The notes under the pieces: generated by a model
Told to the model about the DNA's origin: nothing
Databases searched by the model: none
The model's input: only the letters and a program-made list of their open reading frames with translations
Source: an uncultured Myxococcales bacterium
Lineage (GTDB): Bacteria; Myxococcota_A; UBA9042; DTJE01
DNA length: 64,000 nucleotides
NCBI GenBank assembly: GCA_903936705.1
Contig: CAIZWN010000070.1
Location: 62,001-126,000, forward strand
Direction of reading: 5' to 3'
In this document: piece after piece, positions 8,468-31,472 of the stretch
Layout of the letters: each line of letters opens with the position of its first letter
Position numbering within the stretch: the first letter of the stretch is position 1
Made by a program: the position numbers and the translations under genes

Positions 8468-9124
8468 TTACTGCGGGCACGTCTGGGGGCAGTAGGGGTC
8501 CTTGGGGACCTTGTCGCACGTCTTGTTGTCGCACAGCAGCAACTGGACCAGCTTCAGCGGCAGGCATCCCATCAACTTGCCACCAGCGTTGTCCACGACG
8601 CCCAGGTCCGGGCAGCCATAGTCGGCCCTGCCGCAGTCCGCGTCGGTCGCACAGACCTTGACGCAAAGTTTCGGGAAACCTTCTGAAACCGCGTTGGCAT
8701 CGGCGCATTTCGCGCTGGCATCCGGGCCGCATTCATCGTCCGTCGAGCAGCCGATATAGGAACACATGCCGCCAGGGGCCTCGAGGTTCGGGTTCAACAG
8801 TTTCAGGAATTCGGTGGTCAGGCAGGACATCGTCCAGCACTGATCGTCGGTCTCGCAGGCCGAGCCGGTTGGGCGATCCTTTTCCGGCAGCGGGACGTCA
8901 ACCTGCGTGTCGGTCGTCGTCTCGGCCGCAACGTCGGACGTCGTGTCGGTTACCACGTCAATCGTCTCGGCCGGCAGAACATCGACCGGTCCAAGGTCGT
9001 CAGCCACCTCGGGCGCAACGTCCATGAACCAAAGGTCGGTGCCTGAGATCCGAGCCGAATAGCAGCCGGCACCCACCGGCAAGGTCAGCATCGCGGCCAG
9101 AGCGACCAAGGGAACTCGAGCCAT
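8468..9124 (-). CDS. Cys-rich lipoprotein with Asp/Thr linker
   Basis: 218 residues: signal peptide with lipobox VGAGC (Cys21), a linker of about 50 residues rich in Asp, Val and Thr, then a globular part with more than a dozen Cys in short CxxDxxC-type modules (for example CETDDQC, CSTDDEC and CATDADC). Such Asp-containing Cys modules recur in myxobacterial secreted proteins. GGGAGGGG precedes the ATG. First gene of a two-gene unit with the porin-like protein. Function unknown. Confidence 0.75.
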   Translation of the reverse strand: MARVPLVALAAMLTLPVGAGCYSARISGTDLWFMDVAPEVADDLGPVDVLPAETIDVVTDTTSDVAAETTTDTQVDVPLPEKDRPTGSACETDDQCWTMSCLTTEFLKLLNPNLEAPGGMCSYIGCSTDDECGPDASAKCADANAVSEGFPKLCVKVCATDADCGRADYGCPDLGVVDNAGGKLMGCLPLKLVQLLLCDNKTCDKVPKDPYCPQTCPQ

Positions 9125-9154
9125 GCCACCCCTCCCGGCAGAGCGTTACGGGGG

Positions 9155-9183
9155 ATTTGACACGGGTGCCAACGGCCTGTCAA
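9155..9183 (-). promoter_or_regulatory. Sigma-70 promoter for the lipoprotein/porin pair
   Basis: The minus strand reads TTGACA, 17 bases, TCAAAT: a perfect -35 and a 4/6 -10 box. Predicted transcription start is near 9148, a short leader before the ATG at 9124. Confidence 0.45.
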
Positions 9184-9335
9184 GGAATTCTGGTTGGTAC
9201 GGGTGGGTTGTGTCTGATTCTAGGGAAAAAACCTCTTTTCCCGGGTTTCCGCGTTGTATGTTTCTGGTATTCTCCCGCCCAGGTGGCGCCGGGGAGACCG
9301 GGCGCATTTGTTGGCTTGCCGCGTCGGAGGATGCC

Positions 9336-10340
9336 ATGCGCCAGTTCGAATTGATCAACTCGTTCAGGGTGAAGGCCCGCAAGCAGGTAAAGCACGTTGT
9401 GCTGCCCGAGGGCAACGAGTCGCGCACGGTCCAGGCGGCTGCGCAGGTGGCAGAACTGGGTGTTGCCAGGGTCACGTTGCTGGGCTGCGAGGACGAAATC
9501 CGAAAGGTGGCTGCCGAACAGAAGGTCGACCTGAAGGGCGTCGGGGTGCTGGACCCGGCCAAATCCGACCTGCTGGAAAAATACGTCGCTTCCTATTATG
9601 AAATGCGCCGGCACAAGGGTGTGTCCATGGACCAGGCGCGCCAGGCGGTTCTGGACCCGATCGTGTTCGGTACGATGATGGTTCATCTGGGTGACGCGGA
9701 CGGTCTGGTGTCGGGCGCCGAACATTCGACCGCCCATACGATTCGGCCGGCTCTTCAGATCATCAAGACGGCTCCAGGCATCAGCATCGTTTCGTCGGCG
9801 TTCATCATGCTCGTTCCGGACTGCGAGTTCGGCGAGGAAGGCATGTTCGTATTCGCCGACTGCGCGGTTACCCCGAACCCGAACGCCGAGGAACTGGCGG
9901 CCATCGCCCTGTCGTCCGCCGAGACGGCGAAAGTTTTGTGCGGCATGACGCCGCGCGTCGCAATGCTGTCCTTCAGCACCAGGGGCAGTGCCGAGCACGA
10001 ACTGGTAGACAAGGTCACGAAGGCCACCGAGATCGCCAGGGCGAAGGCGCCTACGCTTGAGATCGACGGCGAGCTTCAGGCGGACGCGGCACTGGTGGCC
10101 AAGGTTGGCCAGAAGAAGTGTCCGGGGTCGCCGGTTGCCGGCCGTGCCAACGTCCTTGTCTTCCCTGATCTTCAGTCTGGCAATATTGGCTACAAACTGG
10201 TCGAGCGGTTGGCCAAGGCGTCGGCCATCGGCCCGTTTCTCCAGGGCATGAAGAAGCCCGTCAACGACCTGTCCCGCGGCTGTTCGGTCGAGGACATCGT
10301 CAATGTGGTTACCATAACGGCAGTACAGGCACAGGGCTGA
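9336..10340 (+). CDS. pta: Phosphate acetyltransferase
   Basis: A 334-residue single-domain Pta, converting acetyl-CoA and phosphate to acetyl phosphate. The sequence opens with the family's KHVVLPEG and ESRTVQAA, and contains VSGAEHSTAHTIRPALQ and MLSFSTRGS, hallmark stretches of the PTA/PTB fold. It lacks the long N-terminal DRTGG/BioD-like domains of the E. coli enzyme. The frame is open to 9123, but GGAGG at 9326-9330 fixes the start at 9336. ackA begins 72 bases after its stop, so the two form the acetate/ATP pathway unit. Confidence 0.95.
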   Translation: MRQFELINSFRVKARKQVKHVVLPEGNESRTVQAAAQVAELGVARVTLLGCEDEIRKVAAEQKVDLKGVGVLDPAKSDLLEKYVASYYEMRRHKGVSMDQARQAVLDPIVFGTMMVHLGDADGLVSGAEHSTAHTIRPALQIIKTAPGISIVSSAFIMLVPDCEFGEEGMFVFADCAVTPNPNAEELAAIALSSAETAKVLCGMTPRVAMLSFSTRGSAEHELVDKVTKATEIARAKAPTLEIDGELQADAALVAKVGQKKCPGSPVAGRANVLVFPDLQSGNIGYKLVERLAKASAIGPFLQGMKKPVNDLSRGCSVEDIVNVVTITAVQAQG

Positions 10341-10412
10341 AATTGGGCGGGGCGGCTGGTCCTCGTCGGACGTCGCCCTCGTTCCATGTCTTTTGATGCG
10401 GAGGCAACGCAG

Positions 10413-11753
10413 ATGATCATTCTTTCGCTGAACTCGGGTTCCAGTTCCCTGAAGTACCAGGTCTTCGATTACGAGAAGGAGGAAACCCTGTCGACCGGTA
10501 TCGTCGAGCGCGTCACGGTCGGCGACTCGTTCATAAAGTTCTGCCGGCACGGCGGGGCGGCCCAGACCATCGGGCATGAGTGCCATGACCACCGTGCGGC
10601 GATGAAGCTGATCCTCCAGGTCATCACGGACCCGGAAACCGGGGTGCTGAAGAGCCTGGACGAGATCGCGGCGGTCGGTCATCGCGTGGTCCACGGCGGC
10701 GAATTCTTTGCGCGGTCTGTGCTGATCGACGACGAGGTTGTTCGGATCGTAAAGTCCCTGTACTCGTTGGCGCCGCTGCACAACCCGCCGAACGTTCTGG
10801 GGATCGAGGCGGCCCGCGAGGTCATGCCGACCGTCCCGCACGTGGCGGTCCTGGACACTGCGTGGCACCAGACGATGCCTGCGCACACGTACACCTACGC
10901 GTTGCCGCACGAGTGGTACGAAAAACATGGCGTCCGCCGCTACGGCTTCCACGGTACGTCGCTGCTGTATTGTGCCAAGAGGGCCGCGGTCCTTATGGGC
11001 AAAGACCCGCTGCAGACGAATCTGGTGATCCTGCACATCGGTAACGGCGCGTCCGCGAATGCCGTCAGGAACGGCCTTTCGTACGACACCTCGATGGGTT
11101 TGACACCGCTGGAAGGCCTGGTGATGGGCACTCGCGCCGGCGATCACGACGCAGCCATCGACCTGGCGATGATGGAAAAACTGGGCAAGACTCCCAAGGA
11201 AATGAACGACATTCTGAACAAGAAGTCGGGCATCTATGGCATTACGGCCGGCAAGTGGTCCGACCGGCGCGATGTCGAGATCGCCTCGAAGGAGGGCGAC
11301 AAGCTGGCGCAACTGGCCATCGACGTCGAGGTGCACCGTCTGAAGAAGTACGTCGGCGCTTACATGGCGGCTATCGGCGGGGCGGACGCGCTGGTCTTCA
11401 CTGCAGGCGTAGGCGAGATGTCCGCGATGGTTCGCCAGCGGACCTGCGAGGGTCTGGAGTTCCTGGGGATCAAGCTGGATCTGCAGCGCAACGAAATGGC
11501 CCGCACGCGAAACGCCGAGTTGCTGATCAGCAGCGAGGATTCAAAGGTCAAGGTGTTCATCATTCCGACCGACGAGGAACGAGTAATCATCGAGGATACG
11601 GTCGCCATCATGAACGGGACCTATGACGATCACACCAAGTTCGTGTACCCCTTCCAGAAGGCCGGTTATATCAACAGCCAGCGCTTGAAGGAGTTCGAGC
11701 GTGAATGCGAGAAACGCCCGCTGCTGGGAAGCCTGGAAGTGAAGCCTGCGTAA
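10413..11753 (+). CDS. ackA: Acetate kinase
   Basis: A 446-residue ASKHA-family kinase that interconverts acetyl phosphate plus ADP with acetate plus ATP. Signature segments are NSGSSSLKYQ at the N-terminus, VGHRVVHGGE, GFHGTSLLY, and the DTSMGLTPLEGLVMGTRAGD substrate loop. GGAGG 8 bases upstream selects the ATG at 10413. It is about 45 residues longer than the usual 400; the excess is a charged C-terminal tail after the last conserved block (DEERVI). Follows pta. Confidence 0.96.
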   Translation: MIILSLNSGSSSLKYQVFDYEKEETLSTGIVERVTVGDSFIKFCRHGGAAQTIGHECHDHRAAMKLILQVITDPETGVLKSLDEIAAVGHRVVHGGEFFARSVLIDDEVVRIVKSLYSLAPLHNPPNVLGIEAAREVMPTVPHVAVLDTAWHQTMPAHTYTYALPHEWYEKHGVRRYGFHGTSLLYCAKRAAVLMGKDPLQTNLVILHIGNGASANAVRNGLSYDTSMGLTPLEGLVMGTRAGDHDAAIDLAMMEKLGKTPKEMNDILNKKSGIYGITAGKWSDRRDVEIASKEGDKLAQLAIDVEVHRLKKYVGAYMAAIGGADALVFTAGVGEMSAMVRQRTCEGLEFLGIKLDLQRNEMARTRNAELLISSEDSKVKVFIIPTDEERVIIEDTVAIMNGTYDDHTKFVYPFQKAGYINSQRLKEFERECEKRPLLGSLEVKPA

Positions 11754-19711: not shown

Positions 19712-21703
19712 GTGACAGTTGCTCTCAGCCTGGTGCTCTTCTCCATCCCCATTTTAATCCTGGGCGGAACCCTGTCCGCAATTCTGTACCGGCATGATCG
19801 GGCGGCGCGGATCACTGGCTGTGTGGCCGGTTTCCTTGGAACGGCGGTCGGCCTTTCGGGCGCGTTGCTGGGACTGATTGACGGGGTCGAGGAAACCGTG
19901 GCATCGGTTTGGCGATTGCCGGTCGGCACGGTGTCGGTAGGTCTTGATCCGCTGACCTCCTTCTTTCTGTTTTGCATCTTTCTCGTTTGCGGACTTGGCG
20001 TCGTCTACGCGATCGGATACCTCAAGCACCTCCCAGGGCGTGCTCGTGTCGCGCCGGCACTGGCATTCTTCAATCTTCTTGTGGTGTCCATGGCCGTTGT
20101 CGTGCTTGCCAGGGACGCGATCTTGTTCCTATTGGCGTGGGAAGCAATGTCTCTGTCATCCTTCTTTCTGGTGACTTTCGACGCCTCTCAGGAATCCACC
20201 AGGCGCGCGGGCATCTTCTACCTGATCGCCTGCCATGTCGGCCTGGTACCGCTGGTCCTTCTGTTCGTTCTGCTGGGCGATCCCGCAGGTTCGTTCGGGT
20301 TCCAGGCAATCCGTGCAGCGACGGCGCCCGGGGGAGGACTTGCGACCGCAGCCTTCCTGCTGGCACTGCTGGGCTTCGGCATCAAGGCCGGCTTTTGGCC
20401 GGTGCACGTCTGGCTGCCCGAGGCTCATCCGGCTGCTCCAAGTCACGTTTCGGCGGTGATGTCGGGTGTGATGATCAAGCTGGGCATCTACGGTCTGCTG
20501 AGGACCTTGACGCTGCTGGGCACCCCGTTGGAGTGGTGGGGGTTCGTACTGATTGCCATAGGCATCGTTTCCGGCGTCGGAGGTGTGTTGCACGCCCTGG
20601 CGCAGCATGATTTGAAGCGGCTCCTGGCTTACTCCAGCGTCGAGAACATCGGGATTATCGCGCTGGGGATGGGCCTTGGGATTGTCGGTCGTGCCAACGG
20701 GAACTCGACCATCGCATTCCTGGGTTTTGGCGGGGCCCTGCTTCACGTCCTGAACCACGGCCTCTTCAAGGGACTGCTGTTCCAGGGTGCCGGCAGCGTA
20801 ATGCACGCGACCGGTACCCGAGATCTCGATTCACTTGGCGGCTTGATGAAAAGGATGCCGGTGACCGGAGCTGCCTTCCTGACCGGCTCGGCGGCCATCA
20901 GCGGGCTGCCACCACTGAACGGCTTCGTCGGCGAGTTGCTGATCTATGTCGGAGCCTTCCTGGGTGTAGTGGAACTGCCATCGGCCAGCGGCCTTTGGAC
21001 GCTGGCCATAGTGCCGGCGCTGGCATTGATCGGAGGGCTGGCGGCGGCGTGCTTCGTGAAGGCTTTCGGGGTCGTGTTCCTGGGCGAGCCTCGTACGCCG
21101 GCGGCAGCGGCGGCGCACGAAGTCGATATGTCGATGAGGATCGCCATGGTGGCGGGTGCTGCCCTGTGCATCGCGATTGGCGTGGCACCCCAGGTCGCGT
21201 TGCGCCTGATTGAGGGCCCGGGTGCCCTCCTTGCGGGGTCAGCATTGTTGCCACCGGTCGTTACCGAAGTGCTTTCGGCGGTCACGAGGGCCTCGCTGGC
21301 CCTGATCTGCCTGGTGGCGCTGGCGGCGTCAGTGCGCTTTCTTCTGTTGCGTCGTCGCGAGGTCCGGCGTGCAGCGACCTGGGGATGCGGCTATGAGGCC
21401 CCGACTCCGCGGATGCAGTACACGTCGGCATCCTTCGCCGATCAGGTGCTGGCACCGGCTGAAACCATCTTCGAACACCACATCGAGGCCGGTGGGCTGA
21501 ACGGGTACTTTCCGCGAACTGCTCACCACCACGAGCGCCTGGGCGACATGGCGGCAGATCGCGTCATGGAACCGGCTATGGGCCTTCTTGTGTCGGCGTT
21601 TGGCAGGCTCGGCTTCCTCCAACAAGGGGGCGTTTCCAGATACCTGGTGTGGGTCCTGCTGACAGTCGTTGTGCTGCTGGTCTGGCAGCTTGGTGCTTTT
21701 TGA
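19712..21703 (+). CDS. Proton-translocating antiporter-like subunit (HyfB/HycC type)
   Basis: A 663-residue polytopic membrane protein of the NuoL/M/N-Mrp antiporter family, with about 14-16 helices. The functional core is present: LLAWEAMSLSSFF (Glu of helix 5), FGIKAGFWPVHVWLPEAHPAAPSHVSA (Lys and His of helices 7-8), and a DLKRLLAYSSVENIG segment. The C-terminal GCGYEAPTPRMQYT is particular to HyfB/HycC-type subunits of group 4 hydrogenases. GTG 19712 is chosen from the promoter just upstream; length then matches HyfB (672). First gene of a six-gene operon. Confidence 0.9.
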   Translation: MTVALSLVLFSIPILILGGTLSAILYRHDRAARITGCVAGFLGTAVGLSGALLGLIDGVEETVASVWRLPVGTVSVGLDPLTSFFLFCIFLVCGLGVVYAIGYLKHLPGRARVAPALAFFNLLVVSMAVVVLARDAILFLLAWEAMSLSSFFLVTFDASQESTRRAGIFYLIACHVGLVPLVLLFVLLGDPAGSFGFQAIRAATAPGGGLATAAFLLALLGFGIKAGFWPVHVWLPEAHPAAPSHVSAVMSGVMIKLGIYGLLRTLTLLGTPLEWWGFVLIAIGIVSGVGGVLHALAQHDLKRLLAYSSVENIGIIALGMGLGIVGRANGNSTIAFLGFGGALLHVLNHGLFKGLLFQGAGSVMHATGTRDLDSLGGLMKRMPVTGAAFLTGSAAISGLPPLNGFVGELLIYVGAFLGVVELPSASGLWTLAIVPALALIGGLAAACFVKAFGVVFLGEPRTPAAAAAHEVDMSMRIAMVAGAALCIAIGVAPQVALRLIEGPGALLAGSALLPPVVTEVLSAVTRASLALICLVALAASVRFLLLRRREVRRAATWGCGYEAPTPRMQYTSASFADQVLAPAETIFEHHIEAGGLNGYFPRTAHHHERLGDMAADRVMEPAMGLLVSAFGRLGFLQQGGVSRYLVWVLLTVVVLLVWQLGAF

Positions 21704-21710
21704 GGTGGCG

Positions 21711-22628
21711 ATGTTCGATGTGCTGATGCACCTGGCCTGGTTGATCCTCCTGCCCCTGCCGATGCTGGGCCTGGTAACCGTGGTCAAGTCGTGGATCGCA
21801 GGACGCCGGGGCCCGCCGTTGCTGCAGCCCTTTCACGATGTCGTCAAGTTGCTTCGCAAGGGTGCCGTCTACAGTCGGACGACAACCTGGGTCTTCGCGG
21901 CCGGGCCGGTCGTCGCGCTGTCCTCGACCGTGCTGGCCGGACTGATTGTGCCGATGGGTTCCCCTTCCTCGCCCTTCGGCTTTAGCGCTGATGTCATCGT
22001 GTTTGCCTACCTGCTTGGGCTTGGTCGATTCTTCACCATGACGGCAGCCTTGGACACCGGGTCGGCCTTCGAGGGCATGGGCGCCAGTCGCGAGGGCGCC
22101 TTTGCTGCACTGGCGGAACCGGCGCTGTTCCTTGCCTTGATGATCCTGTGCGTCCCGGCCGGCGGCATGTCGTTCGGGGAGGCATTCGCCGTGCTGCCTG
22201 CATCCCACGGCCTGCTGCGCAGCCCCGGCCTCCTGCTGGCCGCGCTTGCCTTGGGCGTCGTCCTGTTGGCGGAAACGTCCCGCATTCCGGTAGATGACCC
22301 GAACACTCACCTCGAACTGACGATGATTCACGAAGTCATGGTGCTTGACCACGGTGGCCCGGACCTGGCCTTCATACAGATCGGGTACGCGCTGAAGCTG
22401 TTCGTCCTCGGGTCGGTAATCGTGCACCTGGTTCTTCCGATTCCGGCCGACTCGTGGACTGGTCCTGCCGCGTTCCTGGCCGGCCAGGCCGGCATCGCCG
22501 TGGCAGTCGGTATCATCGAGTCGGTCATGGCCCGCCTGCGTCTGTCTCGCGTTCCCCAGTTTTTGATCGGGGCTTGCGTCGTGGCGGCGGTAGGGGTGCT
22601 GGTCCTCTTTACCGGGGGGCGCCCATGA
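21711..22628 (+). CDS. NuoH-like membrane subunit (HyfC type)
   Basis: 305 residues, eight or so helices, the membrane arm subunit that contacts the peripheral arm. The family motif ETSRIPVDDPNTHLELTMIHE is complete, corresponding to the acidic loop of NuoH/HycD/HyfC. It follows the HyfB-like gene by seven bases behind an AGGTGG, and its stop overlaps the next start. Confidence 0.92.
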   Translation: MFDVLMHLAWLILLPLPMLGLVTVVKSWIAGRRGPPLLQPFHDVVKLLRKGAVYSRTTTWVFAAGPVVALSSTVLAGLIVPMGSPSSPFGFSADVIVFAYLLGLGRFFTMTAALDTGSAFEGMGASREGAFAALAEPALFLALMILCVPAGGMSFGEAFAVLPASHGLLRSPGLLLAALALGVVLLAETSRIPVDDPNTHLELTMIHEVMVLDHGGPDLAFIQIGYALKLFVLGSVIVHLVLPIPADSWTGPAAFLAGQAGIAVAVGIIESVMARLRLSRVPQFLIGACVVAAVGVLVLFTGGRP

Positions 22629-23296
22629 GCCTGGATGCGGACCTGCTGCTGTTGCTGGTTATTGGCATCGACCTTTTCATCGGTTCGACCAGCCGGTTGG
22701 GCGCCCGCATTCGGGCATGCGCGCTGCAGGGCCTGGTTCTTGCGGCGCTGCCGCTTGCCATCCAGGGTACAGGTGTTCTGGCCGAGGGCGAACGGATCGT
22801 CCACACCGTCCTGGCGGTCGGGGCGACGTTGATCCTGAAGGCGGTAGTCATCCCCATATTCCTGTTGCGGGCCATGCGGCGCAGCGGTGTTCGTCGCGAA
22901 GCCGATCCCGAACACAGCCTGCACCTTTCACTGCTGCTTTGCGGTGTGCTGGTCGGGTTGTCGTTCTGGATCGGGGCGGTGATGTTGCCACCCCAGGCAG
23001 GCTCCAGCCCTCTGGGCGTTCCTGCCGGCCTGGCAACGATGCTTATCGGGCTGTTCCTGACCATCAGCGGACGCACTGAATTGACGCAGGTCATTGGCTA
23101 CATGGTCCTTGAGAATGGCGTCTTCGTCATAGGCCAGCGCCTGTTGGGCGAGTTCCCGCTGGTCGTGGAACTGGGCGTCCTGCTGGACGTCCTGGTTGCG
23201 GTCATGCTGATGGCCATCCTGGTGGTATTCACAAACCGCCAGCACGAACAGGGAGCAGATGTGGCGGCAGAAACCGTCGGGGGGGGCGCGCCATGA
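22625..23296 (+). CDS. HyfE-like membrane subunit (NuoK-related)
   Basis: 223 residues with six or seven hydrophobic helices. The VIGYMVLENGVFVIG segment carries the membrane Glu typical of NuoK and MrpC, and the extra N-terminal helices are those of HyfE. ATGA overlap with the HyfC-like gene and again with the HyfF-like gene shows tight coupling. Confidence 0.85.
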   Translation: MSLDADLLLLLVIGIDLFIGSTSRLGARIRACALQGLVLAALPLAIQGTGVLAEGERIVHTVLAVGATLILKAVVIPIFLLRAMRRSGVRREADPEHSLHLSLLLCGVLVGLSFWIGAVMLPPQAGSSPLGVPAGLATMLIGLFLTISGRTELTQVIGYMVLENGVFVIGQRLLGEFPLVVELGVLLDVLVAVMLMAILVVFTNRQHEQGADVAAETVGGGAP

Positions 23297-24753
23297 TCGT
23301 GTTGTGGCTGCTCCTTGCGCTTCCCGTAGCCGGTGGTGTAGTTGCGGCAATGATTCCCAGTCCGCGGGCGGTGCTGTTGCTGTGTGTTATCGGTGCGCTG
23401 GCCGAGGTCGTGCTGGCCGCGTTGGTAGTCCCCGCGGCCCTTGACGCCCCGGTTTTTGCCGGCGGCCGCCAGTTGATGCTGGACGCGCTGTCCGCGTACC
23501 ACCTGGGATTGGTCGTCGTGGTCTTCGCGTTCTCGTCGGTGTTTGCACTCAGGTACTTCGGGCCTCTGGTGCAAGACGGAACCTTTTCGCGCGGCACCGC
23601 CCGCCGGTTCGGCGCGGCCTGGTTCGGCTTTCTGGCCAGCATGGTCATGGTCCTGCTGGCGAACAACGTCGGTCTGCTGTGGGTCGCAATGGAAACCACG
23701 ACGCTGGCTTCGGCCTTGCTGGTGTGCCTGGAATTCGACCCTCCGTCGGTGAAAGCCTCGTGGACCTACATGATGATCTGCTCGGTCGGCATCGCGCTGG
23801 CCCTTCTGGGCACGTTCCTGCTGTGCGGCGAGGCCCGCAACGTCACCACGGGAACCGAGAGCCCGTTCCTTTGGACAGATCTCGTTCGAGCGGCTCCGCG
23901 CATGCGGCCCGGCGGCGTGAAACTGGCGTTCCTGTTCCTGCTGGTCGGCTATGGAACCAAGGCGGGCCTTGCGCCCATGCACACCTGGTTGCCGGATGCT
24001 CACGGGCAGGCTCCGACGCCTGTTTCGGCGGTCTTGTCTGGCGTTCTTCTGAATTGTGCGATGTACGCGATCAGCCGCTTCGTGCCTGTCGTTGACGCGG
24101 TCACAGGCGGCGACGGATGGGCATCAACACTGCTAGTACCCTTCGGTCTTGTGTCGATCCTGGTAGCCGTGGCGTTCATCGCCCACGAGCGCGACCTGAA
24201 GCGGCTGCTGGCATATTGCAGCATCGAACACACCGGTATCATCGCCCTGGCCCTGGGGCTTGGTGCAATGCCGGCGGCGCTGTTCCACACGCTGGGACAT
24301 TCGATTGCCAAGATGGTCGCATTCTTTTCGGTCGGGTTCCTTGCACGCCAGCACGGCACTCGTGACAGCCAGGCCATCAGCGGGATGTTGCGGGTTTCCC
24401 CCTTGGCCGGGATGGGATTGCTGCTGGCGGTGCTTGCCCTGGCGGGTGCTCCTCCGTTCTCGCTGTTCATGAGCGAATTGTGGGTAGCAATAGAGGGGGT
24501 GGAGCAGGGTCACACCGCTGTCGTAGTGGCGTTCCTGCTGGGGGTGGCCGTGATCGCCGTCGTGCTGTTGCGACCCGTGCTGGGCATGGTGTGGCGTCCA
24601 GTGGCCAAGGGGGGCCGCGCTGCCGGTCTGGGATGGATCGACTGGTTGCTGGTGGCTGCTCCACTGGCGGTGTTGGGGCTGCTGGGCTTGTGGATGCCTG
24701 CCTTGTTGACTGACGCGTTGAACAAGGCGGCTGCGATTCTGCGAGGCGGCTGA
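23293..24753 (+). CDS. Proton-translocating antiporter-like subunit (HyfF type)
   Basis: 486 residues, second NuoN/L-like subunit of the operon. The key Glu is in WVAMETTTL, and the Lys/His helix pair in YGTKAGLAPMHTWLPDAHGQ. A further HERDLKRLLAYCSIEHTG segment matches HyfF. Length fits HyfF (about 490-525). Overlaps neighbours at both ends (ATGA before; TGATG junction after). Confidence 0.9.
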   Translation: MIVLWLLLALPVAGGVVAAMIPSPRAVLLLCVIGALAEVVLAALVVPAALDAPVFAGGRQLMLDALSAYHLGLVVVVFAFSSVFALRYFGPLVQDGTFSRGTARRFGAAWFGFLASMVMVLLANNVGLLWVAMETTTLASALLVCLEFDPPSVKASWTYMMICSVGIALALLGTFLLCGEARNVTTGTESPFLWTDLVRAAPRMRPGGVKLAFLFLLVGYGTKAGLAPMHTWLPDAHGQAPTPVSAVLSGVLLNCAMYAISRFVPVVDAVTGGDGWASTLLVPFGLVSILVAVAFIAHERDLKRLLAYCSIEHTGIIALALGLGAMPAALFHTLGHSIAKMVAFFSVGFLARQHGTRDSQAISGMLRVSPLAGMGLLLAVLALAGAPPFSLFMSELWVAIEGVEQGHTAVVVAFLLGVAVIAVVLLRPVLGMVWRPVAKGGRAAGLGWIDWLLVAAPLAVLGLLGLWMPALLTDALNKAAAILRGG

Positions 24754-26300
24754 TGAAACTGGCGAATCCCAAGTCATTCCACAACGGACAGGCCGTCGCA
24801 ATCTTCGACGTTGCCTCGGTTGCACCCCGTGCCCTTCGGGATCTGGTTGTGAATTCCTGCTCGCACGGCGGGCGTCTTTGCGGGTTGTTCACGTTGCCTG
24901 GTCGGCCCGGCACGCTGGACCTGGTGGCGCTGATTGCCCACGACTCCGAAGGGCGCCTCAGCATGTTGAAGGCAGGAGTGGCGCAAGGCGGCAGGTACCC
25001 CTCGCTGACAGCCGAGCTGCCATCGGCGCATGCCTTGGAGCGGGCAATCTGGGAGAGCGACGGTTTGCAACCCGACGGGCACCCGTGGCTGAAACCATTG
25101 CGACGCCATCCTGCGCTGGAACCTGCCGGGGCGGCTGAAACAGGCGATCCTGTCGGCAGGAACCAGGGGGCGGGTGCTGCTGGAGGCCGTGATCACCCGT
25201 TTTTCCGGATGGATGGTCCCGGGGTGCACGAGGTGGCGGTGGGCCCGGTGCATGCGGGCATCATCGAGCCGGGGCACTTCCGTTTCCAGTGTTCGGGTGA
25301 GACGGTTCACCATCTTGAAATCCACCTTGGTTACCAGCATCGAGGTGCCGAGGCCCTGCTGCGCGATTCGTCACCTGCGCGCCGGCTGGCTGTGGCCGAA
25401 ACACTTGCCGGCGACACGTCTATCGGCCACGGGATTGCCTGCTGCCGCGCCATGGAATCACTGGCTGGGATCGAGGTGCCCGAGCAGGCACTTTGGTTGC
25501 GGGCTGTCGCGCTGGAACTGGAGCGCCTTGCCAATCACGTGGGCGACCTTGGCGCACTTTGCAACGACGTGGGTTATCTTCCCGGGGCGTCATGGTTCGG
25601 GCGTTTGCGAGGCGAGTTTCTGAATGCCCAGATGGAGATCTGCGGCAGCCGCTTTGGACGGGGCCTGCTGGTGTTCGGCGGTGTCCGGTTCGGTGTTTCC
25701 CCGGAACTCAGGCACGACTTGCTGGGTCGATTGGCTATTGCCCGTCGTGATCTTGATGATGTGGCATCCGTCACCTTCGAGTCCCCGTCGGTCCTGGGCC
25801 GCTTCGAGCACAGCGGCATCGTGTCCCGTCAGGCGGCCGAGGACATCGGTATGGTTGGCCCGGCTGCACGTGCCAGCGGCTGCACTCGCGACGTTCGCTG
25901 CGATCATCCGCTGGGCGCCTTCGTCGACTGGGGTCTTTCCTCGGCCGTCGAGACCGCCGGGGATGTTCTTGCCCGTGCCCGAGTGCGGTGGGTCGAAGTG
26001 AAGCGCTCGCTGGAATTCGTGCTGGCCCGCCTGGCGGCGCTGCCCGATGGCCCGTTGGTTGTTCCCATGCCGCAGCCACGCCCGGGTGCCGTTGTCGGGG
26101 TGCTGGTCGAGGGATGGCGCGGCGAGATCTGCCATGTCGTGGCGACAGGTGACGACGGGCAAATCGTGGCTTACCGTGTGTTTGATCCCAGCCTGCACAA
26201 CTGGTTCGGTCTGACTTTGGCGATGCGCGGGACTCCGATTTCGGATTTTCCGTTGTGCAATAAATCGTTCAACCTTTCGTATGCGGGGCACGACTTGTAG
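24753..26300 (+). CDS. HyfG-like large subunit lacking NiFe ligands (Ehr type)
   Basis: 515 residues. N-terminal NuoC-like domain (to about 140), then the NuoD / hydrogenase large-subunit fold with HHLEIHLGYQHRGAE and EVPEQALWLRAVALELERLANH. In [NiFe] hydrogenases two CxxC pairs hold the metal site. Here the first is replaced by DTSIGHG (about 221-227; Thr and Gly at the Cys positions) and the C-terminal pair by a tail ending in FPLCNKSFNLSYAGHDL. There is no C-terminal processing sequence. The protein therefore cannot bind NiFe in the usual way and matches the 'energy-converting hydrogenase related' (Ehr) group, whose electron donor or substrate is unknown. Confidence 0.88.
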   Translation: MKLANPKSFHNGQAVAIFDVASVAPRALRDLVVNSCSHGGRLCGLFTLPGRPGTLDLVALIAHDSEGRLSMLKAGVAQGGRYPSLTAELPSAHALERAIWESDGLQPDGHPWLKPLRRHPALEPAGAAETGDPVGRNQGAGAAGGRDHPFFRMDGPGVHEVAVGPVHAGIIEPGHFRFQCSGETVHHLEIHLGYQHRGAEALLRDSSPARRLAVAETLAGDTSIGHGIACCRAMESLAGIEVPEQALWLRAVALELERLANHVGDLGALCNDVGYLPGASWFGRLRGEFLNAQMEICGSRFGRGLLVFGGVRFGVSPELRHDLLGRLAIARRDLDDVASVTFESPSVLGRFEHSGIVSRQAAEDIGMVGPAARASGCTRDVRCDHPLGAFVDWGLSSAVETAGDVLARARVRWVEVKRSLEFVLARLAALPDGPLVVPMPQPRPGAVVGVLVEGWRGEICHVVATGDDGQIVAYRVFDPSLHNWFGLTLAMRGTPISDFPLCNKSFNLSYAGHDL

Positions 26301-26323
26301 ATGCGACAGGGGAGGGCCAGCCG

Positions 26324-27100
26324 ATGAACCTGATCCGCGCGCGGTTCCGCCAAGGCATGCGGACGATGGCCTGGCCGGATGGTCCTGCCAGTCTGCCTTC
26401 GCGTTTTCGCGGGCGGCCAGTTCTGGACCAGTCGCGTTGCATTGACGGCTGTCGTGCCTGCGCCGATGCCTGTCCGACGGGGGCGGTGCACGGCGCGCCT
26501 CTTCGCATGGACCTTGGTGCGTGCCTGTTCTGCCCGGCGTGCGCCGAAGCGTGTCCTACCGGCGCGATCCAATTTTCCAGCGATTTTCGCCTGGCCGCGT
26601 CTGCGCGCCAGGATCTCCAGTTGTCTGGTGAGGCACCTGCCAGCACCGACGCCGACGCCGAGACCCGGCGCCTTGCCGTTGCCCTGCCAGCCGCCACGCG
26701 CCGCCTGTTCGGCCGTTCCTTGAAGCTGCGCCAGGTTTCCGCCGGAGGCTGCAACGGGTGCGAGGCCGATCTGAACGTGACCGGAATAGTGGTGTTCGAC
26801 CTTGGCCGCTTCGGGGTGCAGTTCGTGGCGTCACCACGCCACGCCGATGGAATCGTGGTGACCGGGCCCGTTACGGCGAACATGGAACAGGCCCTGCGCG
26901 ATACGTGGGAGGCCGTGCCCTCGCCGCGCCTCCTGATCGCCGTGGGCGCATGTGCGCTGTCTGGCGGGCCTTTCATCGGTTCTGCGCCTTGCGGTGCCGG
27001 AGTGCCTTCGGACTTGCACGTGGACCTGTTTGTCCCAGGCTGTCCGCCGCACCCTCTGACGTTTCTTGACGGCATCTTGAGAATGCTGGGCAGGCTGTAG
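26324..27100 (+). CDS. Fused ferredoxin and NuoB-like small subunit (HyfH-HyfI)
   Basis: 258 residues combining two peripheral-arm parts. Residues 39-77 hold two [4Fe-4S] motifs: Cys39, 43, 46, 50 (C-x3-C-x2-C-x3-CP, one residue longer than usual) and Cys67, 70, 73, 77 (canonical). Residues 130-258 are the NuoB/HyfI fold with the proximal cluster ligands intact: Cys142 and Cys145 (CNGCE), Cys209 (GACA) and Cys239 (PGCPPHP). So electron transfer centres are kept even though the adjacent large subunit has lost its NiFe ligands. GGGGAGGG precedes the start. Last gene of the operon, converging with sdhB. Confidence 0.9.
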   Translation: MNLIRARFRQGMRTMAWPDGPASLPSRFRGRPVLDQSRCIDGCRACADACPTGAVHGAPLRMDLGACLFCPACAEACPTGAIQFSSDFRLAASARQDLQLSGEAPASTDADAETRRLAVALPAATRRLFGRSLKLRQVSAGGCNGCEADLNVTGIVVFDLGRFGVQFVASPRHADGIVVTGPVTANMEQALRDTWEAVPSPRLLIAVGACALSGGPFIGSAPCGAGVPSDLHVDLFVPGCPPHPLTFLDGILRMLGRL

Positions 27101-27156: not shown

Positions 27157-27932
27157 CTATCCGACCGCCGCCTTTCCGCCGGTACCTTGGTACACCATGA
27201 AACTGGCTTTGTGGAAGTCGCAGTTGGCGCGGGCGATGTGGTGAATACCGATGCGCTTGGGGCAGACGGCTTCGCACTCGCCGTAGTTCGAACAGTATCC
27301 GAAACCCTCGGCCTCGGCCGTGCGGATCATCGCCAGGGCACGCTTCAGGCGCTCGGGCTGGCCCTGGGGCAGCAGGCCCAGATGCGACAGCTTGGCCGAC
27401 ACGAACAGTGACGCCGACCCGTTCGGGCAGGACGCCACGCACGCGCCGCAGCCGATGCACTCGGCCGCATCCATCGCCAGGTCGCTGGACTCCTTCGACA
27501 CGGTAATGCCGTTGGCGTCCGGGGCCGAACCAGTTCGCACCGCGATGAAGCCTCCGACCTGGATGATTCGGTCGAACGCTCCGCGGTCCACAATCAGGTC
27601 CTTCAGGATCGGGAAGGCCTTGCTGCGGAACGGCTCGATCCAGATCTCGTCGTTGTCATGGAAGTGTCGCATGTGCAGTTGGCACAGTGTCGTGCCGGAC
27701 TTCGGACCATGCGGTTCCCCGTTGACCACGGCGCCGCAGCAACCGCAGATGCCCTCGCGGCAATCGTGCTCGAAGTGGACGGGCTCTTCGCCCTTGACCA
27801 CCAGTTCCTCGTTCAGGACGTCCAGCATCTCCAGGAAGGACATGTGTTCGGAAACGTCCGCAAGAGTGTAAAGCTGGAAACCGCCCTTGTTGGAACGCGC
27901 CTTCTGGCGCCAGATATGCAGCGTCAGCTTCA

Positions 27933-27933
<1 letters not shown>
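27157..27933 (-). CDS. sdhB: Succinate dehydrogenase/fumarate reductase iron-sulfur subunit
   Basis: 258 residues. [2Fe-2S] ligands at Cys58, 63, 66 and 84 ([10 protein letters not shown] ... TLC), then [12 protein letters not shown] and a later CEAVCP for the [4Fe-4S] and [3Fe-4S] clusters. It passes electrons from the flavoprotein to the cytochrome b subunit. GAGGAG upstream of ATG 27933, which overlaps the sdhA stop by one base (TAATG). Confidence 0.93.
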
Positions 27934-29842
<1,909 letters not shown>

Positions 29843-29846
<4 letters not shown>

Positions 29847-30529
29847 GCGACACCTCCTGGGATCTTGATCAGGCCGGCAAGGACCGCGATCGGGAAGGAC
29901 AGGTCGCCGATTACGACGATGGCCGTCAGGAGGTTCGCAACGCAGCGGCGTGCGCGGTCCTGGGCCGGGTGCGACCAGCCCAGCGTCTGGAACCATGACC
30001 ACAGGCCATGGTTGAAGTGCAGCATCAGCATCAGCACCGCGACAATGTAGAAGGCCGACACGTACCACAGGGTGAAACCGTTGACGACGTTCTCGTAGGC
30101 GCGCAGCTCCTGGAAGGGCAGCCCGGCGCTGCCGCACGTCAGGTGCAGTATGTGGTAGACGATGAATGCCCCGATGATCGGGCCCGACCAGACCATCGTG
30201 CGTGCGGCATAGCCGACCTCGCGGTAGACGCGCTTGGCGTACCGGACGGGACGGGCGCCCCAGGCCTGAATGGTCAGGACGATTGCTGCCCAGACGTGCA
30301 GCACGACACACAGGATCAACACGATTCGGGCGGCCCACAACAGGGGGGCAGCTCGGGTTGAGTGCAGGAAGGCCGCGTACTCGTTGATTGCCTTCCCTCC
30401 GTCGCCCGCGTACAGCTGGAGGTTCCCCAGCATGTGCACGAACACGTAGGCAAAGAGGATCAAGCCAGTGACGGCCATCACCATCTTCTTGCCGACTGCC
30501 GAACGCCAATAGGCTGCCAGTGCGGACAT
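29843..30529 (-). CDS. sdhC: Succinate dehydrogenase cytochrome b558 subunit (type B)
   Basis: 228 residues, five transmembrane helices in one polypeptide with haem-ligand histidines spread over helices (HMLGN, VLHVWA, VYHILH, MLHFNHG), the pattern of di-haem type B anchors. It anchors SdhAB and hands electrons to, or takes them from, quinone. GGAGGG precedes ATG. First gene of sdhCAB. Confidence 0.9.
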
Positions 30530-30859: not shown

Positions 30860-31147
30860 ATGTATGCAAAGGAAACGGTCAAGCCCATTACCTACTTGAA
30901 GAATAATGCTGCGGTGGTGATCCGGGACGCCGCCGAGTCAGGATACACATTGGTCGTAACGCAAAATGGGGAAGCCAAAGCCGTGGTCATGGGTATTGAC
31001 CAGTATGAATACTGGAAGCGATCCCTGGCCATGCTGAAACTGATTTCACTGGGCGAAGCGGATATCGCGGCCGGGAATCTGGTGACGGCGGAAGATGCTT
31101 TCGCGGCTGCGGAACAGACCATCAGGCAGGCTCGCAAGAATGACTGA
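30860..31147 (+). CDS. Phd/YefM-family antitoxin
   Basis: 95 residues. The N-terminal KPITYLKNNAAVVIRDAAESG is the DNA-binding, ribbon-helix-like Phd/YefM fold; TLVVTQNGEAKAVVM and the following DQYEYWKR are family core. The acidic/amphipathic C-terminal part would wrap the toxin. It overlaps the toxin gene by eight bases. It probably represses its own promoter. Confidence 0.88.
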   Translation: MYAKETVKPITYLKNNAAVVIRDAAESGYTLVVTQNGEAKAVVMGIDQYEYWKRSLAMLKLISLGEADIAAGNLVTAEDAFAAAEQTIRQARKND

Positions 31148-31472
31148 CCAGCATTTCAAGGTCCTGTGGACCGCTGTTGCTGTGCTGGATCTCAAGGATA
31201 TTATTGAATACATCGCCGCAGACTCAAGTTTGAACGCGACAAATGTCCTGAACAAACTGAAGGATCGCGTTGCAGAACTCGACCAATTTCCGGACCGTGG
31301 CCGGGTAGTTCCCGAACTTGCCAAGGTTGGTCTGTCGGGCTGGCGCGAGCTGGTCGTCAAACCCTACCGCATCGTGTACCGGATTGACCGCGATTCGGTC
31401 TATATCCTTGGCGTGCTGGATTCCCGCCGCGACCTCGAGGAACTTCTACTAAGGCGCTTGATTCGTATGTAA
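31140..31472 (+). CDS. RelE/ParE-superfamily toxin
   Basis: 110 residues. The fold is indicated by DLKDIIEYIA near the start, a FPDRGRVVPEL loop, and the C-terminal strands WRELVVKPYRIVYRI and VYILGVLDSRRD. ParE-like members poison gyrase, RelE-like members cleave ribosome-bound mRNA; the sequence alone does not decide, though the 'DRGR...VPEL' form is usual in ParE. Downstream partner of the Phd-like antitoxin. Confidence 0.87.
   Translation: MTDQHFKVLWTAVAVLDLKDIIEYIAADSSLNATNVLNKLKDRVAELDQFPDRGRVVPELAKVGLSGWRELVVKPYRIVYRIDRDSVYILGVLDSRRDLEELLLRRLIRM

Follow-up and report, generated by a model that had tools for sequence, protein, structure and literature searches.

A conserved Ehr complex without nickel–iron ligands in an uncultured Myxococcales bacterium

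Introduction

What does a hydrogenase-like membrane complex do when the ligands of its nickel–iron (NiFe) site are gone? The question is raised by six genes at positions 19712-27100 of a 64,000-nucleotide stretch of DNA, here called the window (contig CAIZWN010000070.1 of assembly GCA_903936705.1, positions 62,001 to 126,000), from an uncultured Myxococcales bacterium. An initial annotation, made from the sequence alone, described them as a cysteine-less hydrogenase-related (Ehr) proton-pumping complex. This assignment is upheld. The locus is an Ehr complex: it has no NiFe ligands, forms one clade with Geobacter Ehr and shares the gene set and order of other Ehr loci, and of 30 Ehr genomes 19 are without the NiFe maturation protein HypD. 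It belongs to an already described family within the complex I/group 4 hydrogenase superfamily; this family is known as GSU0739-0745 in Geobacter sulfurreducens (Coppi 2005; PMC7894505) and found also in Nitrospira and Sulfobacillus. The function of Ehr has been given as unknown in print up to 2025-2026, and in 2026 the complex of G. sulfurreducens KN400 was called non-functional because its NiFe site is missing (PMC13194489). The useful additions made here are a residue-level comparison, evidence of selection, a four-cysteine relative and the association with a regulator. We consider it more probable than otherwise (roughly 0.6) that a working Ehr is a ferredoxin-driven ion pump which reduces a small acceptor in the old NiFe cavity.

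Results

Loss of the NiFe ligands in EhrL

Alignment of the large subunit EhrL with Escherichia coli HycE, HyfG and NuoCD places Ala219, Thr222, Ser509 and Gly512 at the four NiFe ligand positions C241, C244, C531 and C534 of HycE. No cysteine is found at any of them in the window. Both CxxC pairs had been reported as lost, and so they are, but the residues replacing the first pair are Ala219 and Thr222 and not a Thr and Gly at 221-227. The four positions read A/T/S/G in 83 of 99 Ehr proteins, the third and fourth being Ser and Gly in all 99, while G220 and D221 are invariant among 55 Ehr proteins. The EhrL tail, DFPLCNKSFNLSYAGHDL, aligns with HycE residue for residue and ends at L515, three residues past position 512; in HycE 35 residues follow that position. 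In 94 proteins it nearly always follows the consensus DFP-[LIV]-[CN]-NKSF-[ND]-LSY-[CAS]-G-x-D-[LV]. The C-terminal extension that is cleaved by an endopeptidase in HycE is absent, as had been noted. This absence alone is not diagnostic, because a four-cysteine relative (L126/L140, described below) is tail-less as well.

HypD is needed to build the NiFe site. We searched a phylum sample of 189 genomes, 30 of which carry EhrL (match at E < 1e-120; a distant copy in genome G013 was left out). HypD is present in 47 of the 189 and missing from the 19 Ehr genomes mentioned above; 14 of these 19 have a completeness of 90% or more. Among the relatives searched for NiFe hydrogenases too, five Ehr carriers (G003, G004, G009, G010 and G017) have no HypD and no NiFe large subunit. 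The maturation-gene search proposed with the initial annotation finds HypD and another hydrogenase on other contigs of the window's own genome, so that an argument from HypD absence is not usable there. In N. moscoviensis, H2 did not raise Ehr expression (PMC12342949). In practice, Ehr does not appear to act as a hydrogenase.

Selection and the conserved proton path

In comparison with two congeneric species, the ratio of nonsynonymous to synonymous substitution (dN/dS) is 0.11-0.22 over the six window genes, with 0.11 and 0.14 for EhrL; these ratios are rough, as synonymous distances approach or exceed 1. All six reading frames are open. Among 55 EhrL proteins from many phyla 72 residues are invariant, and at 24 near-invariant positions EhrL departs from HycE as well as from NuoCD. 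In the structure of formate hydrogenlyase the proton path of HycE consists of E193, R478, D529, H284, E437 and R395 (PMC9474812). Their EhrL counterparts E172 (E193), R456 (R478), H262 (H284) and E415 (E437) are kept in 55 of 55 proteins, and R373 (R395) in 54. The canopy Asp529 of HycE, which was called strictly conserved (PMC9474812), is replaced by Asn507 in 51 of the 55. By these measures the EhrL site is under strong selection and not decaying.

The pocket and the structure model

Three types of site have been distinguished in this superfamily: complex I with H38 and Y87, hydrogenases with four Cys and the Glu E21, and MBS of Pyrococcus furiosus with neither (PMC7684303). In MBS a shortened Cys loop leaves one iron of the proximal cluster open, the catalytic Glu is missing and two large-subunit Cys are kept (PMC7684303). 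EhrL has Ile171 and Gly220 at the complex I quinone positions H38 and Y87 of Nqo4, the 49-kDa subunit. Because the quinone His and Tyr and all ligand Cys are lacking while the Glu and a hydrogenase-type proximal loop are kept, the Ehr pocket, as read from the alignment, fits none of the three types.

An AlphaFold model of EhrL was built from 55 sequences, an earlier one from 15 being too poor at the tail and the cavity. Its mean predicted local distance difference test score is 89.0 and its predicted template-modelling (TM) score 0.91. The closest structure in the PDB is HycE (TM 0.87/0.84, 28% identity), followed by complex I at 0.81/0.71. HycE is also the best solved relative by sequence (7z0s_E, 3e-47).

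The iron–sulfur chain and the membrane arm

The small subunit EhrS is a two-cluster ferredoxin domain (HyfH/NuoI-like) fused to an N2/proximal-cluster domain (HyfI/NuoB-like). The cysteines of the ferredoxin domain (C39, C43, C46, C50, C67, C70, C73 and C77) and of the proximal cluster (C143, C146, C210 and C240) are each kept in most Ehr homologues. With CxxxCxxCxxxCP, the first ferredoxin motif (C39-C50, window 26438-26473) exceeds the usual CxxCxxCxxxCP by one residue. At the proximal cluster the loop reads CNGC, like that of HycG and in contrast to the tandem CC of NuoB.

In the membrane arm, HyfB keeps all of NuoM E144, K234, K265 and E407. HyfF keeps E144, K234 and E407 and has Asn for K265, as does E. 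coli HyfF. HyfC, with a DDPxTHLEL loop, keeps NuoH E157, D213 and E220 and carries the changes E216 to N, E218 to H and E228 to D, which are the same in other Ehr. With all iron–sulfur ligands and most antiporter residues in place, the earlier description of the pump and its wiring as intact is largely borne out. We infer from these residues that a non-hydrogen redox reaction is coupled to ion pumping.

Family tree and origin

An IQ-TREE phylogeny was calculated from 45 EhrL-related rows, including two Geobacteraceae (Geobacter argillaceus and Geomonas); the GSU sequences are absent from it. The 30 Ehr rows, with the window and both Geobacteraceae among them, form one clade (100/100), and the complex I proteins a separate one (100/100). 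Outside the Ehr clade branch, in order, a cysteine-less protein of Verrucomicrobia (L072_second; 96/89), the four-cysteine L126 (97/75), the cysteine-less L018 on a very long branch, and HycE/HyfG. L126, whose source shares its phylum with the window, has ICGVC and DFPLVNKSFELCYACTDR and no tail extension; its gene is flanked by those for HyfF and for a fused small subunit. Placement of the window protein inside true hydrogenases, or Cys ligands at other positions, was not seen.

Since the nearest relatives outside the clade include a cysteine-less copy and then a four-cysteine tail-less protein, the cysteines seem to have been lost within hydrogenases. Ehr probably derives from a four-cysteine tail-less hydrogenase-type enzyme and lost its ligands separately from complex I. 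This reading assumes rooting on the complex I outgroup; some inner branches are weak, and L126 is a putative hydrogenase only.

The locus L140:1011-3492 (G141:C671) holds a four-cysteine tail-less EhrL relative (ICGVC ... CYACTDR), the closest four-cysteine one in the tree. The ferredoxin domain of its fused small subunit seemingly has one cluster motif only.

Distribution and gene order

A profile built from 15 relatives and run on GTDB contigs gave at least 571 confirmed relatives. We analyzed about 93 loci from at least 12 phyla, namely 80 of the loci of these relatives and those of the window's own relatives. Stop-to-stop frames were searched with profiles to assign the subunits, because the gene caller missed some real genes in high-GC loci. 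Nearly all of the loci encode this set of six subunits, for the most part arranged as HyfB, C, E, F, G, HI, and the fusion of the small subunit belongs to the shared plan. A second HyfB copy occurs in some. The window has one, whereas Geobacter has two, EhrA-1 and EhrA-2 (PMC7894505, PMC13194489).

Two further Ehr-like operons were seen. A divergent cysteine-less Ehr-like operon at L141:4640-12073 (G013:C22) has the order HyfC-E-F-G-HI-B, the tail LSVAESDR and a ferredoxin domain with fewer Cys. On a Verrucomicrobia contig a second Ehr-like operon with the tail FPVVNKSFNLSYSGNDR lies directly behind the first (L072:12305-19431) and branches outside the main Ehr clade.

Candidate regulator

Enough upstream sequence is available for 64 loci, and 34 of them encode a protein of about 210-290 residues at most two genes from the Ehr operon, in most cases immediately upstream and in the same orientation (examples in Table 1); like all our flank-gene counts, this one rests on the gene caller that missed some genes in high-GC loci. 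Two members were scanned, and both are fusions of HTH_17 with a PtsN-like PTS_EIIA_2 domain. Of 41 sequences, 40 retain the EIIA motif histidine. The gene occurs in Planctomycetota (11/12), Verrucomicrobiota (7/9), Bacteroidota (3/3), Spirochaetota (2/2) and others. It was not found in the window's genome or in the family members searched, and is therefore not needed for Ehr in this lineage. A literature search on it found nothing. It is possible that the protein regulates Ehr and links it to phosphoenolpyruvate (PEP) or the energy state.

The locus and its neighbours

The features are listed in Table 1. The profile matches agree with the families first given for the six same-strand genes. For HyfB they are PF00361 (3.1e-56) and, as best NCBIfam entry, NF005086 (hydrogenase-4 subunit B, 2.4e-182); its C-terminal part has a WGCGYEAP loop that resembles the ND3-like loop of HycC. 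With matches down to 2.4e-182, the six-gene set in nearly all of the about 93 loci and the low dN/dS, the operon is not a product of chance. The genes were also said to overlap. This is true of C/E and E/F (4 bases each) and F/G (1 base), but G and HI are separated by 23 bases, and B and C overlap only if HyfC starts at TTG 21669, compared with which ATG 21711 is the likelier start.

The sdhCAB genes are adjacent, as had been pointed out, in convergent orientation and outside the complex. Besides the window, only G001 has them close to Ehr, at a distance of about 6 kb; elsewhere there is one distant homologue pair (L032), and none was found on the 18.8-kb contig of G002, which belongs to the window's genus. 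We rejected sdhCAB as an Ehr partner, the neighbourhood not being conserved. Adjacent pta and ackA genes about 8 kb upstream of Ehr point to acetyl-CoA/acetate metabolism.

Table 1. Coordinates of the Ehr genes, their diagnostic segments and other features (window positions unless a locus is given)
Feature	Position	Strand	Remarks
HyfB/NuoL-like antiporter subunit (EhrA type)	19712..21703	+	663 aa from GTG 19712; 697 aa from ATG 19610
HyfC/NuoH-like membrane anchor (EhrB type)	21711..22628	+	PF00146 7.9e-32; alternative start TTG 21669
HyfE-like membrane subunit (EhrC type)	22625..23296	+	NF008556 4e-17; position shared with other Ehr loci
HyfF antiporter-like subunit	23293..24753	+	PF00361; NF005044 2.6e-107, hydrogenase-4 subunit F
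Large subunit EhrL (HyfG), 515 aa	24753..26300	+	NuoC-like N-part and NuoD/HycE-like core, PF00346 3.8e-28
EhrL A219-G220-D221-T222, place of first CxxC pair	25407..25418	+	Alignment with HycE/HyfG/NuoCD
EhrL tail D498-L515, place of second CxxC pair, gene end	26244..26297	+	
Fused small subunit EhrS (HI gene), 258 aa	26324..27100	+	PF12838, PF01058
sdhB-sdhA-sdhC	27157..30529	-	NF005746, TIGR01811, TIGR02046
Phosphotransacetylase and acetate kinase (pta-ackA)	9123-11753	+	
Toxin-antitoxin pair: Phd/YefM-type antitoxin and ParE/RelE-type toxin	30860-31472	+	PF02604; PF05016
HTH_17-PTS_EIIA_2 gene near Ehr	L022:4240-4908		
HTH_17-PTS_EIIA_2 gene near Ehr	L027:4235-4945		

Discussion

Electron donor and proposed mechanism

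Beside the about 93 Ehr loci no homologues of NuoE, NuoF or NuoG were found, and no formate dehydrogenase, for which E. coli NuoG was the stand-in query, so that a distant FdhA may escape. Among 80 immediate same-strand neighbours no Pfam family occurs in more than two members. As no NuoE/F/G-type genes lie alongside and no enzyme family is common to the neighbours, direct input from ferredoxin would be the simplest idea. A gamma domain of POR-type ferredoxin oxidoreductases is found in 30 of 30 Ehr genomes, compared with 157 of 189 overall.

In the ferredoxin-driven pump that we favour, electrons, most likely from reduced ferredoxin, would enter the two ferredoxin-type clusters of EhrS and pass to the proximal cluster, whose ligands are present. 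A small acceptor bound in the former NiFe cavity of EhrL would receive them and may draw its protons via the conserved E172, R456, H262, E415 and R373. The reaction would power ion pumping by HyfB, HyfF and HyfC, as their key residues suggest, and hydrogen would be neither made nor used. As for the acceptor, quinone and some other carrier share equal standing, each tentatively and short of an even chance; what is left falls to a reaction at the cluster itself or to something else.

Several observations weigh against this mechanism. The cavity loops 166-171 and 511-515 have low confidence in the model. The link to ferredoxin is weak, because POR-type enzymes are common across the sample and related genomes are not independent. 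HyfF K265 and some of the NuoH glutamates in HyfC are altered, and many Ehr genomes lack every quinone marker, as detailed next.

Alternative explanations

The quinone branch of the mechanism can be put separately: Ehr may be a ferredoxin:quinone oxidoreductase that works like a shortened complex I lacking the NADH module, in which quinone enters a cavity between EhrL, EhrS and HyfC and is reduced at the former nickel site. We regard this as possible, though rather unlikely. It draws on the shared complex I modules and the high fold similarity, and at least one quinone-synthesis marker (MqnA/D, MenD or MenG/UbiE) is present in 16 of 28 Ehr genomes. All three are missing in the other 12, including that of the window and of the isolate Rectinema subterraneum (G243). 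The window's genome (G000) as well as two family members, G003 and G010, have no MqnA/D, no MenD over the cut-off and no MenG/UbiE. However, SdhCAB needs quinone and is encoded in the window, so these markers give false negatives and their absence is no proof against quinone. UbiA was rejected as a marker, being present in 14 of 14 control genomes. Counterevidence comes also from the site itself, where Ile171 and Gly220 stand for the quinone His and Tyr and CxxC for the tandem CC of NuoB. A sulfane-sulfur or polysulfide reductase like MBS, with the proximal cluster as catalyst, is improbable. MBS is the one characterized ferredoxin-fed non-hydrogenase relative outside complex I (PMC7684303), yet Ehr has the hydrogenase-type CxxC loop and four proximal ligands instead of a shortened loop with an open iron, and it keeps E172 and none of the four Cys, where MBS lacks the Glu and has two.

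The loss of the nickel site, together with missense changes in the ehr genes of electrode-evolved Geobacter (PMC13194489), could also mean a decayed hydrogenase without redox function, or just a passive ion channel. The low dN/dS and open frames of all six genes, the six-gene set across many phyla and the invariant and Ehr-specific residues of EhrL speak against this, and in G. sulfurreducens Ehr proteins are more abundant on formate than with hydrogen (PMC7894505). We give decay very little credence. The chance is equally slim that Ehr is still a hydrogenase, with another metal or with NiFe held by other ligands. By alignment, conserved polar residues (D221, S509, K504, H167 and E172) do lie at or near the former site, and many members have a Cys directly before position 512; but the window has Ala instead of this Cys, its nearest relatives have Ser or Ala, and neither the missing HypD genes nor the unresponsiveness to H2 described above fits a hydrogenase.

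Significance

Ehr is widespread and, here under strong selection, matches none of the three active-site types of known structure. Identifying its substrate would make a whole class of energy-conserving pumps from bacteria of soil, sediment and groundwater readable. It would also allow the route from hydrogenase to complex I to be compared with another loss of the nickel site, one that probably took place independently. A bolder proposal, doubtful when taken as a whole, is that Ehr adds another catalytic type to the complex I superfamily: a ferredoxin pump with a hydrogenase proton path, a metal-free pocket and a non-hydrogen, possibly non-quinone substrate. Under this proposal its ancestors would be tail-less hydrogenases with four cysteines, its origin would be separate from that of complex I, and the DNA-binding PTS-EIIA protein encoded near it in many phyla may couple it to PEP or the energy state.

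Comparison with known systems

The Ehr of Geobacter, Nitrospira and Sulfobacillus has the same subunit types and the same loss of NiFe ligands, and the window EhrL falls into one clade with its Geobacteraceae relatives. Geobacter differs in its second HyfB, and the window's family does not have the HTH-EIIA gene that accompanies many Ehr operons. Formate dehydrogenase–Ehr complexes were proposed in Riflemargulisbacteria and Saganbacteria (PMC6349859). They likewise combine Ehr genes with an unknown partner, but no NuoE/F or NuoG/FdhA-type gene was found beside the window Ehr or its about 93 relatives.

Formate hydrogenlyase and hydrogenase 4 of E. coli (HycE, HyfG) share the Hyf subunit types and proton-path residues and give the best sequence and fold match. 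Unlike them, Ehr has neither the four NiFe Cys nor the cleavable tail, has Asn507 for Asp529 and a fused small subunit, and its operon is without HycB/HyfA, HyfD and FdhF; many carriers are also without HypD. Respiratory complex I (NuoB/CD/H/I/L/M/N) has homologous modules, the antiporter residues and the iron–sulfur wire in common with Ehr, which in contrast lacks the NADH module and the quinone His/Tyr, has CxxC for CC at the proximal cluster and belongs to a separate clade. MBS of P. furiosus resembles Ehr in its ion-pumping arm and its missing NiFe site, and a shared ferredoxin-type electron entry would be expected. The two differ at the site: MBS has a three-Cys proximal cluster, two large-subunit Cys and no catalytic Glu, whereas Ehr keeps E172, four cluster ligands and none of the large-subunit Cys.

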